From a candidate division KSB1 bacterium (lineage in GTDB: Bacteria; Zhuqueibacterota; JdFR-76; DREG01), in assembly GCA_022566355.1 (NCBI GenBank), contig JADFJB010000005.1, forward strand, positions 1-64,000: a stretch of 64,000 bases of DNA, written 5' to 3'. The notes beneath the pieces were generated by a model. That model saw only the letters and a program-made list of their open reading frames with translations, had not been told where the DNA came from and made no database searches. Position 1 is the first letter of the stretch, and the number at the start of each line of letters is the position of its first letter. Positions 3,127 through 11,241 of the stretch are shown here, piece by piece. Both the position numbers and the translations under genes were made by a program.

Positions 3127-5220
3127 ATGAAAATGAAAAAAATATCGCTAATCGTGTTGTTCTTTGTATACCCGTTTTCCGGCGTTCTCGCTCAGCAAAC
3201 TGAACAAAGACCCATGACTGTCGATGATGGTCTGAACATGGTCAGGGTTGGTGATGCTTTAATGTCACCGGATGGGGAATGGGTTTTCTTTTCCAAATCT
3301 GAGTTGGATTGGAAAAAGAATAAACGCAAAAAAAAGTATTATAGAATTTCCTCAGAAGGCGGCGAGGCATACCAATTTATCGGGGAAGAAGGCGGCAGTT
3401 CGTTCCGGTTTTCGCCCAAAGGGACCTGGCTGTCGTTCATTCGGTCGGTTGGCGATAAAGACAAAGACAAAGACAAAGAAAGCCAGATATTCATCATGCG
3501 AACCAATGGCGGCGAAGCGGTCCAACTCACCAAGCATAAAAAGGGATTATCGCGCTATCTATGGACGAAAGATGAGTCTAAAATCATTTTTCTTGCCAAC
3601 GAGCCCAAGAGCAAAGAAGATGAAAAAAAGAAGAAAGACGGCTATGACGCCATTGCTGTCGATGAAGGACCAAACGGCCAACGAGCGGGTAGTTGGCGCA
3701 ACCTGTGGCTGTTCGATGTGGAATCCAAAGAGGAAAAGAGAATCACCAATGAGAATTTCATCATCGGCAATTTTGATGTTTCGCCCGATGGCAAAAGGAT
3801 CCTTTTTACAGCACGCTTTGAGAACCGCCGCAACCAGGGCAACCTGTCGGAAATTTATATGATGACAATAGAAGATTCAGTCAAGACTCGGCTCACCGAA
3901 AATCGTGCTCCAGAAAGTCGACTGCTCTGGGCGCCGGATGGTAAAACTTTTGCGTATATTGCCGCTGATGATAAGGAGTGGGAATTGCGCAACAGCAAGA
4001 TCTGGCTGATGAATCCGGATACCAAAGAATACCACCTGCTATCGGGTGATTTCGAAGGCCGGATCCGCAGCTTATTTTGGACGCCAGACAGTAAAAGTAT
4101 TCTGTTCAGCGCACTACAACGAACCAATACCAACCTGTATAAACTGGATGTGAAAAAGAAAAGCATCCAGCAGATCACCAATAAAGTGGGCTCATTATCT
4201 GCAAATTCATTTTCGAAAGATCGAAAGAAATTCGTATATACATACTCTAATTTTGACACTCCTTCAGATCTATTTACCGCTAATGTTGGCAAATTCAAAC
4301 CAACTCGATTGACTGATGCCAATCCATGGATCAAAAAAGAAATTAAGCTGGCAAAAGGGGAAGTCATTGGCTGGAACAGCAAAGACGGTCTGGAAATTGA
4401 AGGGCTGTTGTACTTACCAGAGAGCTATAAGAAAGGTGAAAAGCTGCCTCTTATATTGAATATTCATGGCGGCCCTGCAGGTGTATTTACCAATAATTTC
4501 AGCGCTCGATACCATGTTTATGCTGGTTTGGGCTATGCGTCCCTATGTCCAAATGTACGCGGCAGCAGCGGCTACAGCGATGAATTTCTACGCGGTAACA
4601 TGCACGATATCGGCGGCGGCGATTACCAGGATTTGATGACGGGCGTGGATACTATTATCGAAAATGGAATTGCCGATCCGGAGAAACTCGGGTTGCGCGG
4701 CTGGAGTTATGGCGGCATCCTCGGCGGCTGGACCATCACCCAAACGGATCGTTTTAAGGCTGCCTCTGTAGGCGCGATGGTTTCCGATTGGACTTCCGAA
4801 TATGGCCCCGGTTTCAACTATGATGTGCGATTGTGGTATATCGGCGACACTCCCTGGAACAATTCCGAAGGCTACCGGCAAAAATCGTCGTTAACCCATG
4901 CTTCTAATGTTACCACACCGACCATCATTTTTCATGGCATCAACGACCGCACCGACACGGAACCGCAAAGCATGATGTTCTTTGCCGCATTAAAGGATAT
5001 GGGTAAAACCGCCCGGTATTTGCGTTTTCCACGTGAGCCACACGGCTTTCGTGAACTCCGGCACCAACGCACCAGGGATATCGAAGAGATCCGCTGGATG
5101 CAAAAGTATGTCCTGGACATAGACTGGGAACCGTGGATTCGGGAAGAGGATAAAAAGAAAGATGAGGAAAAGGATGGTGAAAAAGAGATCTCTATTTTGG
5201 ACCGGTTCAGTGAAAAATGA
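3127..5220 (+). CDS. S9-family serine peptidase (prolyl oligopeptidase type)
   Basis: A 697-residue exported peptidase. Residues 1 to about 22 form a signal peptide (KKISLIVLFFVYPFSGVLAQ). Next comes a WD40-like beta-propeller to about residue 410, with repeated 'SPDGK' and 'LTENRAPESRLLWAPDG' blades, then an alpha/beta hydrolase domain. The triad is visible: Ser527 in GWSYGG, Asp607 in GINDRTD and His639 in REPHGF. The family cuts peptides after small or proline residues; the substrate here is unknown. Oddities are a DKDKDKDKE stretch coded by a 6-base tandem repeat near 3456-3480 and a Lys/Glu-rich tail. A TTG start at 3079 would spoil the signal peptide, so I used ATG 3127. Confidence 0.88.
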   Translation: MKMKKISLIVLFFVYPFSGVLAQQTEQRPMTVDDGLNMVRVGDALMSPDGEWVFFSKSELDWKKNKRKKKYYRISSEGGEAYQFIGEEGGSSFRFSPKGTWLSFIRSVGDKDKDKDKESQIFIMRTNGGEAVQLTKHKKGLSRYLWTKDESKIIFLANEPKSKEDEKKKKDGYDAIAVDEGPNGQRAGSWRNLWLFDVESKEEKRITNENFIIGNFDVSPDGKRILFTARFENRRNQGNLSEIYMMTIEDSVKTRLTENRAPESRLLWAPDGKTFAYIAADDKEWELRNSKIWLMNPDTKEYHLLSGDFEGRIRSLFWTPDSKSILFSALQRTNTNLYKLDVKKKSIQQITNKVGSLSANSFSKDRKKFVYTYSNFDTPSDLFTANVGKFKPTRLTDANPWIKKEIKLAKGEVIGWNSKDGLEIEGLLYLPESYKKGEKLPLILNIHGGPAGVFTNNFSARYHVYAGLGYASLCPNVRGSSGYSDEFLRGNMHDIGGGDYQDLMTGVDTIIENGIADPEKLGLRGWSYGGILGGWTITQTDRFKAASVGAMVSDWTSEYGPGFNYDVRLWYIGDTPWNNSEGYRQKSSLTHASNVTTPTIIFHGINDRTDTEPQSMMFFAALKDMGKTARYLRFPREPHGFRELRHQRTRDIEEIRWMQKYVLDIDWEPWIREEDKKKDEEKDGEKEISILDRFSEK

Positions 5221-5668: not shown

Positions 5669-6322
5669 CCTTTGATTTGAAATTCCTTGAAAAGTTTTTC
5701 GCTAGGGGGTCGTTGTGTAAATGAAAAATGATCCCAAACCATTTCCCAATATCAAAAATTTTCACAAAATTAAACATATCGTGTATAGCATTTCATATAC
5801 CAAAAGTGTATCAAAAATTGCCATAAGTTAAATTGGAATACAGATTACTATCGAAATAGTTATAACCTAAAACAAAGTGCTTTTCTTATTCTAGTTGTTT
5901 TTCAACCGGCAAAACGATGGATTGAATTATTTTGAAACGAACAGAATGAAATATTGTAGAACAAAATCTTGTATGATGACTGTATTCAATATTTGTCCTT
6001 CGATGCAATCAATAGGAATTTTATTCCCTTCTAGCTCTAATTTTCCTGCTTAAATAAATTCTATAAAAATGAACATTATGGAGATTAATAAGTAGTAACC
6101 ATCCAAAAGGCTTTAATGATTTTTAGGCTAGTAAATCGGAATAATGAATTAAAAAGTGAAACTAAAAAAAATAAACAAATATGGAGGTTAGGTTATTCAG
6201 AATGGTAAATTTATTAAAGCTAATTCCTCTAATGATGGCATGGTCTTTGTAATAGTTTTGAGGATTGGTATTGAATTTATTTAATTGCTTTGTGTTCTTT
6301 GGCAAGAGATGGACATTGGTGC
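5669..6322. other. Gene-free AT-rich stretch
   Basis: No convincing gene, RNA or repeat is visible. On the minus strand at about 5935-6049 there is a 37-codon open stretch (reads AGKLELEGNKIPIDCIEGQI and on) that looks protein-like, but it lacks a start and matches nothing I know. It may be another eroded gene. A 16-codon plus-strand frame at 6202 has a GGAGG too far upstream to be convincing. Confidence 0.4.
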
Positions 6323-6405
6323 TAAACGATCCGTGATGGTCCCGGACTGACGATTAAGTCGGGTTATACAACGATTCAATTTCATCCCACCATTTGGATC
6401 GTTTA
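6323..6405 (+). ncRNA. Candidate structured RNA leader of the prkA operon
   Basis: The outer stem 6323-6332/6396-6405 (TAAACGATCC with GGATCGTTTA) is a perfect 10 bp. Inside it, ATGGT 6336-6340 can pair with ACCAT 6389-6393, and CCCGGACT 6341-6348 with AGTCGGG 6357-6363 with one bulged G. The result is a compact branched fold of 83 bases, 110 bases before the prkA start. I do not recognise a riboswitch or sRNA class. It could be a cis-regulatory leader, a small RNA or an upstream terminator; there is no T-run after it. Pairing is seen directly, function is inference. Confidence 0.35.
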
Positions 6406-6515
6406 AAGAGTTACCTCCTATTTCTTACCAAATAACGACAAATTTATTTTTAATTATCTAGTGTAATACTTGAATGAAGCCGAAATAGTATTAAATAAAA
6501 GCTTCGGAGGGCATT

Positions 6516-8603
6516 ATGAGTAGTCAAAAAAAAGAAGTAATTGTTGCTTCTAAGAATGGGGAAAATCATTCAATTTTAAACAAAATGCGGGATATGATAG
6601 AACCAAAACACTATCAACAACTTAGTTGGTCGGGCACTTTTGAGGAGTATCTCCAACTAATAAAAAAAGATCCTAACATTCTTCGCAATGCATACCAACG
6701 TGTTTATGATATGATATTGACTGCAGGATATGATGAATATGTTGACAACAAAGATAAAATTATTCATTACAATTTTTTTGACGATCCGACTCATAATGGC
6801 AAGGATGCTATTTTCGGCTTGGATCTCTCATTGATGAAGTTGATCCATCTTTTTAAATCTGCTAGTAAATCTTACGGCACACAGAACCGTGTTCTACTTC
6901 TCCACGGTCCGGTAGGAAGCTCAAAAAGTACAATTGTCCGCTTAATTAAAAAAGGTTTAGAGGCTTATTCTCTAAAGGATGAGGGAGCATTATACTCGTA
7001 TTCCTGGAAACTTAAAGACAACGAAGGAAACGAAACATGGGAAAACTGCCCCATGCATGAAGATCCGATTCATTTAATTCCCTTGGAAGTTCGAAAAACT
7101 TTGGTTGATGATCTTGAAATTGATCTCATGGGAAACATGAAAGTATTGCAATCTGAATTATGCCCCTTTTGCCGTTATTATTTTAAAGAAAAATTAGACC
7201 GGTATAATGGAGATTGGGTGAGTGTTATCGGCGATGTAAAAATTCGAAGAATTGTATTGTCCGAACAGGACAGAATCGGCATTGGAACATTTCAACCAAA
7301 GGATGAAAAAAATCAAGATTCTACAGAGTTAACGGGAGATATCAATTATCGTAAAATTGCAATTTATGGCTCAGATTCTGATCCTAGAGCTTTCAATTTC
7401 GATGGTGAGTTTAACATTGCAAACCGGGGGATTATAGAATTCATTGAAGTCTTGAAACTCGAGGTTGCTTTCTTATACGATCTTTTGGGTGCGTCACAAG
7501 AACATAAGATCAAACCCAAGAAGTTTGCACAAACAGATATTGATGAAGTGATCATAGGCCATACAAATGAACCGGAATATAAAAGGCTACAAAACAATGA
7601 ATTCATGGAAGCTTTGAGAGATAGAACTGTCAAAATTGATATTCCTTACATTACTCGTTTGGATTGTGAAATAAAGATCTACGAGAAGGATTTTAATGCT
7701 GATAAAATTAAAGGAAAGCATATCGCCCCGCATACAATCGAAATGGCCTCGATGTGGGCTGTGTTAACAAGATTAGAAGATCCAAAACATGCCCAACTCA
7801 CAATGATGCAGAAATTAAAACTTTACAACGGAAAAACCTTACCTGGATTTACAGAGGATAGCGTTAAAGAATTGATGGCGGAAACCAGCAGGGAGGGAAT
7901 GGACGGTATCTCGCCGAGATATATTCAGGATAAAATATCTAATGCTTTAGTGAATGAAGACGAAAGCTGTGTAAATCCTTTTATGGTTTTAAACGAATTA
8001 GAATCAGGGCTAGAGCATCATAGTCTAATCGGTTCTAATGAGCAACGCCATCGTTATCGAGATCTTCTTGCCTTGGTAAAAGAAGAATACGAAGATATCG
8101 TAAAAAACGAAGTCCAGCGTGCAATAGCTGCCGATGAAGAAGCCTTAACCAGGCTCTGTGCCAATTATATTGACAACATTAAAGCTTATACGCAAAAAGA
8201 AAAAGTAAAAAATCGTTATACCGGCCAAAGCGAAGAACCGGATGAGCGTTCGATGCGATCGATAGAAGAAAAAATTGAAATTCCCGAAAGCAGGAAAGAA
8301 GATTTCAGAAGAGAAATTATGAATTATATTGGTGCGTTAGCAATTGAAGGAAGAACGTTTGATTATCGGACAAATGAACGCTTGCAAAAGGCGCTTGAGT
8401 TGAAATTATTTGAAGATCAAAAGGATTCAATTAAATTGACCAGCTTAATTTCACATGTCGTTGATAAAGATACCCAAGAAAAAATTGATGTTGTGAAATC
8501 ACGCATGATTAAGTATTACAACTATTGTGATGTATGTGCTACGGATGTCTTACAATATGTAGCAAGTATTTTCGCCCGTGGAGATGTTAAAGGCAACTCA
8601 TAA
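6516..8603 (+). CDS. prkA: PrkA-family serine protein kinase/AAA+ protein
   Basis: A 695-residue cytoplasmic protein. The N-terminal AAA+ PrkA domain has a Walker [10 protein letters not shown] at residues 131-139 (Lys137) and family motifs such as [12 protein letters not shown]. The C-terminal part (about 430-690) is the PrkA kinase-like region. PrkA proteins act in stress, stationary-phase and sporulation control; in E. coli (YeaG) it works with YeaH. The ATG at 6516 follows a strong GGAGGG seven bases upstream. It is the first gene of a prkA-yeaH-spoVR operon with a 14-base gap to the next. Length is slightly above the usual 640-680 residues. Confidence 0.93.
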
Positions 8604-8617
8604 TGTAGAGATGTTCA

Positions 8618-9724
8618 ATGGTGAAAAAAATTGAAAAAGATGTTGCTCGATTTAACAAGATTGTAAAAGGAACCATCAGGAAAGACCTGGCGAAATACAT
8701 TTCAAATGGTGAACTGATCGGTCGAAGAGGGAAGGAATTAGTGAGTATACCAATTCCTCAGATTGAAACTCCAAGATTCAAATTTGATTATATGCAAGCC
8801 GGTGGCGTGGGGCAGGGGGAAGGTAAAGAAGGTACATCTATTGGATTTGAACCGGATAGTCAAGGGACTGGCAAAGCTGGCGATCAGCCAGGCCAGCATA
8901 TCCGTGAAGTGGAAATTAGTTTGCAAGAGCTTGCCGAAATCCTTGGCGAGGAATTAAAACTTCCCCGGATAGAGCCAAAGGGTAAGAGTAACATCTTAAC
9001 TCAAAAAGATAAGTATACGGTCATTCGAAACACCGGCCCTGAATCTTTACGTCATTTTAAGAGAACCTATAAAGCTGCGTTAAAGAGGCAAATATCTTCC
9101 CAAAGCTATGATTTCGAATTTCCGATTGTAGTGCCAATTCGTGAGGATGTTCGCTACAAATCCTGGAAAGAAACCAAATTACCCGAAACCAATGCAGTCA
9201 TTTTCTACATTATGGATGTATCCGGGTCGATGGGGGATGAACAGAAAGAAATCGTTAGAATTGAGTCTTTTTGGATTGATACCTGGCTAAAAGCAAATTA
9301 TAAAGGCCTCAGCACAAGGTATATTGTCCACGATGCTGCAGCTTATGAGGTCAATGAGGAGACATTCTTTACGTTGAGAGAAAGTGGAGGGACCATTATT
9401 TCGACTGCTTATAAATTGTGTTCGCAGATTATTGAAAAAGAGTATAGCCCCAATGAATGGAATATTTATTTCTTCCAGTTTTCAGATGGAGATAATTGGG
9501 GTGAAACCGACAATTCAAAATGTATCGACATTTTGAACAATCAATTATTACCCGCCTGCAATTTATTTGGATATGGCCAGGTAAAAAGTGATTATGGTTC
9601 CGGAGAGTATATAAACTTTCTGGAAAACCACCTGGGATCAGAGGAAAAACTGATTTTGTCAGAGATAGATTCCAAAGATGATATTTTGAATTCTATTAAA
9701 GATTTTCTCGGAAAAGGATTATGA
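8618..9724 (+). CDS. yeaH: YeaH/YhbH family protein (DUF444, VWA-like)
   Basis: A 368-residue protein of the DUF444 family, which accompanies PrkA kinases. The N-terminal third is basic with a Gly-rich linker ([11 protein letters not shown], about residues 68-100). The C-terminal part is a von Willebrand A-like domain whose metal site reads DVSGSM at residues 200-205, with FSDGDNWGE further on. VWA domains bind protein partners through a metal ion; in E. coli YeaH is functionally linked to YeaG. It lies 14 bases after prkA and 23 before spoVR, consistent with one transcript. Confidence 0.92.
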
Positions 9725-9747: not shown

Positions 9748-11241
9748 ATGGCATTAGACATTGAAAAACTAAAAGTAGCTAAAGATCAAATTAAAGAATA
9801 TGCCGAAAGCTATGGTTTGGATTTATATGAAACCATATTTGAGATAGTGGATTACGCGCAAATGAATGAATTGGCCAGCTTTGGTGGTTTTCCTAATCGC
9901 TATCCGCACTGGCGTTTTGGTATGGAATATCAGCAAATGCGAAAAAGTTATGCCTATGGACTCCATCGTATTTATGAAATGGTGATTAATAACAATCCAT
10001 CTTATGCTTATCTGCTAAATTCAAACAAGTTGTCTGATCAAAAACTCGTTATGGCCCATGTTTACGCTCATGTGGATTTTTTTAAAAATAACCTTTGGTT
10101 TGAGCATACGGATCGTCGCATGATTGATGAAATGGCTAATCATGCTACCAGAATTCGTCGCTATATTGAAAAATATGGGTATGAAACTGTTGAGGATTTT
10201 ATAGACAGCTGTCTCACTATCGAGAATCTCATTGATTATCATTCGCCATTCATTCGGAGAAATCCTAAAGATATCTTGGATCAAGATGAGGAACAACATC
10301 CGATTGTGTATAAAATGAAAAGCAAATCTTACCTGGATTCTTATGTAAATCCTAAGGAATTTCTGGAGCAACAGAAATTAGTACAAGAAAACGAAATTAA
10401 AAAAAGTAGGGTGTTTCCGCAGCATTCAGCAAAAGATATCCTTCAATTTCTGATCGAATATGCCCCGATAAAGAAGTGGCAACAGGACATTCTTTCTATC
10501 ATCCGGGAAGAAGCATATTATTTTGCCCCACAAGGTCAAACGAAAATCATGAACGAAGGTTGGGCAACATATTGGCATTCCCGAATGATGGCTGAGAAAA
10601 TCTTAACCGATGCAGATATTATTGATTATGCTGACCATCATTCAGCAACTGTCGCAACTTCCACAGGGAGATTAAACCCGTACAAATTGGGTGTTGAATT
10701 GTTTAGGGACATCAAAGATCGGTGGGATAAAGGAAGATTTGGCAAAGAATTCGAGGAATGTGACAATTTAAAAAGTAGAATGAATTGGGATATGCACCTG
10801 GGTTTGGGAATAGAAAAAATATTTGAAGTACGCAAGCTTTATAATGATGTAACATTCATTGATACCTTTCTAACCGAAGATTTTGTGCGTGAACAAAAAA
10901 TGTTCACGTATGAATTTGATAATCGGGATAAGGCTTATAAAATTGATAGCCGGGAGTTTGACAAAATTAAAAAAAAACTGTTAACAAGTTTAACGAATTT
11001 GGGGCAGCCAGCCATTGAAATTAAAAATGCAAATTATGAAAATAGGGGAGAGCTGTATCTGTTTCATCGTTTTGATGGTGTTGAACTACAATATAAATAT
11101 GCCCAGGAAACCCTAGAAAATTTACACAAAATATGGACAAGACCTGTTTTGCTTGAAAGTACATTTAATGGAAATCCCGGAGTTTTATCTGTTGATGGTG
11201 AAGATTTTAATCTTCAGAAAGTGTCTGATCCGGCAGTATAG
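9748..11241 (+). CDS. spoVR: SpoVR family protein
   Basis: A 497-residue cytoplasmic protein matching the SpoVR family in length and motifs: GGFPNRYPHWRFGMEYQQM near residue 47, a HVYAHVDFFKNN segment near 101, and MNEGWATYWHSRMM near 267, where the conserved His and Glu could bind metal. In Bacillus SpoVR is needed for normal spore cortex, and in enterobacteria (YcgB) it belongs to the general stress regulon. No other sporulation gene is present, so a stress role is likelier. Third gene of the prkA operon. Confidence 0.93.
   Translation: MALDIEKLKVAKDQIKEYAESYGLDLYETIFEIVDYAQMNELASFGGFPNRYPHWRFGMEYQQMRKSYAYGLHRIYEMVINNNPSYAYLLNSNKLSDQKLVMAHVYAHVDFFKNNLWFEHTDRRMIDEMANHATRIRRYIEKYGYETVEDFIDSCLTIENLIDYHSPFIRRNPKDILDQDEEQHPIVYKMKSKSYLDSYVNPKEFLEQQKLVQENEIKKSRVFPQHSAKDILQFLIEYAPIKKWQQDILSIIREEAYYFAPQGQTKIMNEGWATYWHSRMMAEKILTDADIIDYADHHSATVATSTGRLNPYKLGVELFRDIKDRWDKGRFGKEFEECDNLKSRMNWDMHLGLGIEKIFEVRKLYNDVTFIDTFLTEDFVREQKMFTYEFDNRDKAYKIDSREFDKIKKKLLTSLTNLGQPAIEIKNANYENRGELYLFHRFDGVELQYKYAQETLENLHKIWTRPVLLESTFNGNPGVLSVDGEDFNLQKVSDPAV

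Follow-up and report, generated by a model that had tools for sequence, protein, structure and literature searches.

A base-paired stem in the predicted sigma-54-dependent leader of a KSB1 prkA operon, with a counterpart in a second genus

The region ahead of the prkA operon in a candidate division KSB1 bacterium holds a match to the sigma-54 promoter, a base-paired stem downstream of it and, at the same position in a second genus, a counterpart of that stem that differs by compensatory base changes; all three are shown here by computation. The reading that we favor, at a probability of about one half, is that the stem is a structured element, restricted to one family, in the 5' UTR of a sigma-54-dependent prkA-DUF444-spoVR mRNA, with a role in RNA stability or processing. 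PrkA/YeaG kinases are widespread stress proteins; to our knowledge, little is known of their control outside the Proteobacteria. Throughout, the window is the whole 64-kb stretch of DNA analyzed, its source genome is a MAG-like assembly (G000), and the prkA locus in it is referred to as L004.

Results

The prkA operon and its predicted promoter

Three genes follow one another on the forward strand of the window: prkA at 6516-8603 (PF08298 and PF06798), a DUF444 or yeaH-type gene at 8618-9724 (PF04285), and spoVR at 9748-11241 (PF04293). An earlier note on this DNA, made from the letters alone, had placed a structured RNA upstream of a prkA-yeaH-spoVR module, and these domain assignments bear out the module and put the element inside the predicted leader. 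The Shine-Dalgarno sequence of prkA, GGAGG, lies at 6507-6511 on the same strand.

Upstream of the operon, and also on the forward strand, TGGCATGGTCTTTGTAAT at 6236-6253 is a predicted sigma-54 (-24/-12) promoter, with GG at -24 and TGC/TGT at -12 in the fixed spacing. It was scored with a position-specific scoring matrix (PSSM) built from the 29 Salmonella sites printed in PMC3844500, which themselves score 15.6 or more; with a score of 17.0 it is the best match on both strands of the window, the runner-up reaching 13.5. Transcription from this site would start near 6262 and give prkA a leader of 254 nt (6262-6515, forward strand, from predicted start to ATG), in which the hairpin discussed below would occupy about +62 to +144.

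To place this match in context we assembled 24 upstream regions of KSB1 prkA genes, or 23 after dropping L139, where the region lies inside the gene. The promoter and stem scans exclude L009, which has 91 nt upstream, and L024, L025, L026, L028, L029, L142, L143 and L145 went unused on grounds of partial genes, remote relationship, little or no upstream DNA, or because they were not prepared. A script set the start codons, which may be misplaced in some cases, for example in L010, L011, L018, L021 and L022; L021 and L022 are near-identical. Eight of the 23 KSB1 regions score at least 12, compared with 3.3% of shuffles, and seven score at least 14, compared with 1.5%. Among upstream regions from other named records, 5 of 73 score at least 12 (1.1% of shuffles). 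A rougher sigma-54 matrix led to the same result; in that scan the group of other records included the KSB1 duplicates L036 and L039, which were removed together with L030 for the PSSM scan. A sigma-54 gene (PF04552) is present in all eight genomes examined, and in the source genome rpoN lies on the same contig as prkA (C5:25056-25532). These sequence data point to a prkA operon that would be under sigma-54 control in this uncultured phylum.

Such control has precedents. In R. etli, expression of prkA requires RpoN1 and is subject to negative autoregulation, and the gene is the first of an operon that also contains a VWA gene and spoVR (PMC3188799); E. coli yeaGH binds both NtrC and RNA polymerase (PMC4664914), and the Salmonella yeaG sigma-54 site is TGGCATGAGAGTTGCTTT (PMC3844500). 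These operons begin with the same gene as ours, and the three-gene order of prkA, VWA-domain protein and spoVR is shared with R. etli (PMC3188799). Unlike the present operon, with its predicted leader of about 254 nt, its hairpin and its place in an uncultured phylum, none of these accounts mentions a leader structure in the portions available to us. The proposal in the earlier note that the leader is stress-responsive thus gains only indirect backing, from the predicted sigma-54 promoter and from the sigma-54/NtrC control of prkA/yeaG described for these other bacteria.

A long imperfect hairpin in the leader

Folding of 6323-6405 predicts one long imperfect hairpin. The perfect 10-bp outer stem that had been read from the letters is present in both the sequence and the predicted fold, pairing 6323-6332 with 6396-6405. 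It is continued by a second stem, as had also been proposed, although of six base pairs rather than five (6335-6340 with 6389-6394); G-U pairs occur at 6333/6395 and 6335/6394. The conserved stem accordingly comprises a 5' arm at 6323-6340 and a 3' arm at 6389-6405, both on the forward strand, and its pairs have probabilities of 0.96-1.00 within the predicted leader. The inner part between the arms (6341-6388, forward strand) is predicted to form an imperfect hairpin and is conserved in neither sequence nor length. A bulged GC-rich hairpin that had been suggested for it (6341-6348 with 6357-6363) is possible but not supported: its energy is less favorable by 4 kcal/mol than that of the fold predicted here, and its probability is about 0.005.

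The 103-nt segment around the stem folds with -31.9 kcal/mol (z -3.0), a value equaled by 4 of 200 shuffles; in a second run with slightly different ends, 12 of 1000 shuffles fold as well. For the 9-nt outer arm, an equally good downstream partner appears in 1 of 3000 shuffles, and a 17-nt arm is paired equally well in 6 of 3000 shuffled downstream stretches. While the unusual order claimed for the element is thus apparent against shuffled sequence, the segment ranks only 36th of 8522 overlapping window segments by GC-corrected folding energy, and the window contains 52 pairs of inverted repeats of at least 10 nt within 150 nt; the stem alone is therefore unusual rather than outstanding. Elsewhere in the window, at 2901-2993, an inverted repeat of the CACAGAGGCAC type, 31 nt long and with 87% complementarity, gives the strongest fold predicted for the whole stretch.

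The element resembles the structured 5' UTR elements among the Rfam cis-regulatory families in being a conserved paired leader region ahead of an operon, and differs from them in having no Rfam 15 match: the whole window gave no match at the gathering score, and 6200-6540 gave none with E up to 5. No leader RNA of prkA or yeaG, and no KSB1 account, was recognized in the part of the literature covered, which consisted mostly of titles and the opening lines of abstracts.

A counterpart in a second genus

The gene prkA is present in 31 of the 82 genomes of the phylum and in four of the seven of the order. Within the family of the source genome it occurs in only one other genome, G001 (G002 is without it), and there in two copies. 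One of these, L005, shares the sigma-54 element of the window and has a leader comparable to that of L004; L027, the second copy, lies closely behind another open frame and has neither the stem nor such a leader.

Local alignment of the window and L005 upstream regions yields a single strong block, corresponding to window positions 6233-6339, which begins at the sigma-54 site and ends with the 5' arm. The inner part of the hairpin and the sequence between the stem and the ATG are identical only at the level of shuffled sequence. All nine outer pairs are nevertheless kept in L005: pairs 1, 3 and 7 are changed on both sides, pair 2 is G-U, and the other five are identical to those of the window. 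The distance from promoter to arm is 88 nt in the window and 91 nt in L005, that from arm to ATG 111 and 112 nt, and the 9-nt arms are separated by 63 and 83 nt, respectively. With the 5' arm of L005 held fixed, equal pairing is found in 11 of 3000 shuffled downstream stretches for 9 nt and in 5 of 3000 for 17 nt. Taken whole, L005 folds only slightly better than shuffled sequence (z -1.6; 68 of 1000 shuffles do as well), and a competing register exists for its upper stem, in which three pairs have probabilities of 0.34-0.51.

The covariation that the earlier note had proposed looking for in the 10-bp stem is thus seen in the only usable same-family relative, as compensatory changes in three of nine pairs with none broken. 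It comes from one comparison, as only two sequences carry the stem; MAFFT alignments of the two leaders or hairpins put the 3' arm in the wrong place, and for this reason no covariance model was built. Since the fold is retained in a related genus despite changes in its sequence, the hairpin is probably real.

Distribution of the stem

When the 330 nt upstream of prkA are scanned blindly for their best long-range arm, the arm of this stem comes out on top in L004 and L005, where 1 of 60 and 0 of 60 shuffles, respectively, do equally well. In each of the remaining 21 of the 23 KSB1 regions, at least 6 of 60 shuffles do so; as far as the scan shows, the stem is therefore found in 2 of the 23 regions and is absent outside this KSB1 family, also from f4, which belongs to the same order (L006 and L007).

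A BLAST search of the 271-nt leader against 59 relatives produced hits in two, one being the leader's own sequence and the other a 32-nt match in G049 that is unrelated; the element is single-copy in its own genome. The motif CGANCCGTGAYGG, searched across the 59 genomes, has one match in G000 and one in G001. An apparent enrichment of this motif in G002 (7 against 0 in the control) was dropped, as the matches look coding and unpaired; each of nine matches inspected, seven in G002 and two in G006, lies in a stretch that has an open frame of at least 172 codons on one strand, and none shows such a stem. Among IMG/VR contigs, 129 stretches encode PrkA relatives, the best at 62% identity and the 80 listed (L146-L225) at 49-62%; these were of no use for the leader comparison.

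A different kind of hairpin was observed at other loci. A terminator-like hairpin of the AGTCGAAAT..ATTTCGACTTTTTTT type lies upstream of prkA in several KSB1 families (L008, L011-L018, L021, L022 and L144), with only its 3' half in view in L011 and L012, and in many of these loci it is preceded by a boxA-like TTCTTTGAC or CGCTCTTTG. These terminator-like hairpins possibly mark a short attenuated transcript.

Discussion

Consideration of the position of the stem gives some insight into what it may do. The Shine-Dalgarno sequence lies about 100 nt downstream of the hairpin, and the mean unpaired probability from there to the AUG is 0.38 in the window with or without the hairpin, and 0.41 with and 0.43 without it in L005. 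As removal of the hairpin leaves the predicted access unchanged, a simple translation switch is unlikely, and an RNA thermometer or other Shine-Dalgarno-sequestering switch was rejected on these grounds. An intrinsic terminator or attenuator was likewise rejected: the terminator scan of the window reports no site, as a hairpin with a U run behind it, at 6323-6420, and AAGAGTTACC comes after 6405. Directly ahead of the stem, at 6295-6305, there is a boxA-like TTCTTTGGCAA, with TCTTTGACAA as its L005 counterpart; a search of four genomes for 16S rRNA, as a source of a local boxA to compare with the TCTTTGRCAA before the stem, found none.

Several other explanations of the paired arms were considered. 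The stem could be the remnant of a MITE-like inverted-repeat insert that lengthened a short leader, its pairing maintained by template switching from arm to arm and serving no function. In family f10 the sigma-54 site lies 73-86 nt from the ATG (L013, L014, L017, L023 and L144), while in the family of G000 and G001 it lies 280 and 304 nt away, and one f10 locus, L141, has its sigma-54 site at -338 and an inverted-repeat insert in the same place. This insert, in G059 (minus strand, about 3616-3856), sits between the sigma-54 site and prkA and contains a degenerate frame that is 23S_rRNA_IVP-like (PF05635, E 0.023, which is below the cut-off). A MITE would be expected in several genomic copies, and G000 has one; furthermore, the spacings are kept on both sides of the stem, and the L005 stem, with its G-U pair and second register, is not a perfect copy. 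We consider an insert of this kind unlikely, if worth keeping in mind.

Conservation of the pairing across two genera would also be seen if the dyad, which lies shortly after the predicted sigma-54 start, acted as DNA, either by binding a regulator or by forming a cruciform. Arms 63-83 nt apart with a bulge are unlike a compact operator, and the G-U pairs in both the window and L005 suit RNA better and favor an RNA role over a DNA role, which leaves this alternative quite unlikely. That two unrelated hairpins arose by chance in a fast-changing leader might be argued from the presence of only two sequences and from the abundance of inverted repeats of at least 10 nt. We find this improbable, because the same arm is on top in both regions, the other 21 KSB1 regions show no comparable excess, and only 11 of 3000 shuffles pair as well as the L005 arm. 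A leader-peptide attenuator, encoded by a 13-codon frame (ATG at 6309, TGA at 6348-6350) that overlaps the 5' arm, is highly improbable, for although L005 has a 21-codon frame with an aligned ATG and an in-frame length difference in the aligned part, the frame has no Shine-Dalgarno sequence ahead of it and no third-position bias, and no terminator follows the hairpin.

Under the preferred reading of a structured 5' UTR element, transcription of prkA-DUF444-spoVR would start at the sigma-54 promoter near 6262, the stem would be transcribed, and selection would act on its RNA form. The stem may then serve in protecting or processing the long leader, perhaps as a 5' stabilizer or as a double-stranded substrate of the RNase III type, or it may be a protein landing site; in either case its action would differ from occlusion of the ribosome site and from termination of transcription. 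As R. etli prkA is negatively autoregulated (PMC3188799), the hairpin might instead be a dedicated post-transcriptional control site, for instance one at which the PrkA system holds back its own expression, but we regard this as a long shot. Taken together, our data partly confirm the observation from which this work started and partly support its interpretation, which was right in place and partly so in kind.

At present these results describe one candidate leader RNA, with two examples in one family. If the hairpin were a target of the PrkA system, control of prkA would be two-layered, with a sigma-54-dependent start and a leader RNA; more generally, should expression depend on the stem, the prkA module would gain a layer of control at the RNA level.
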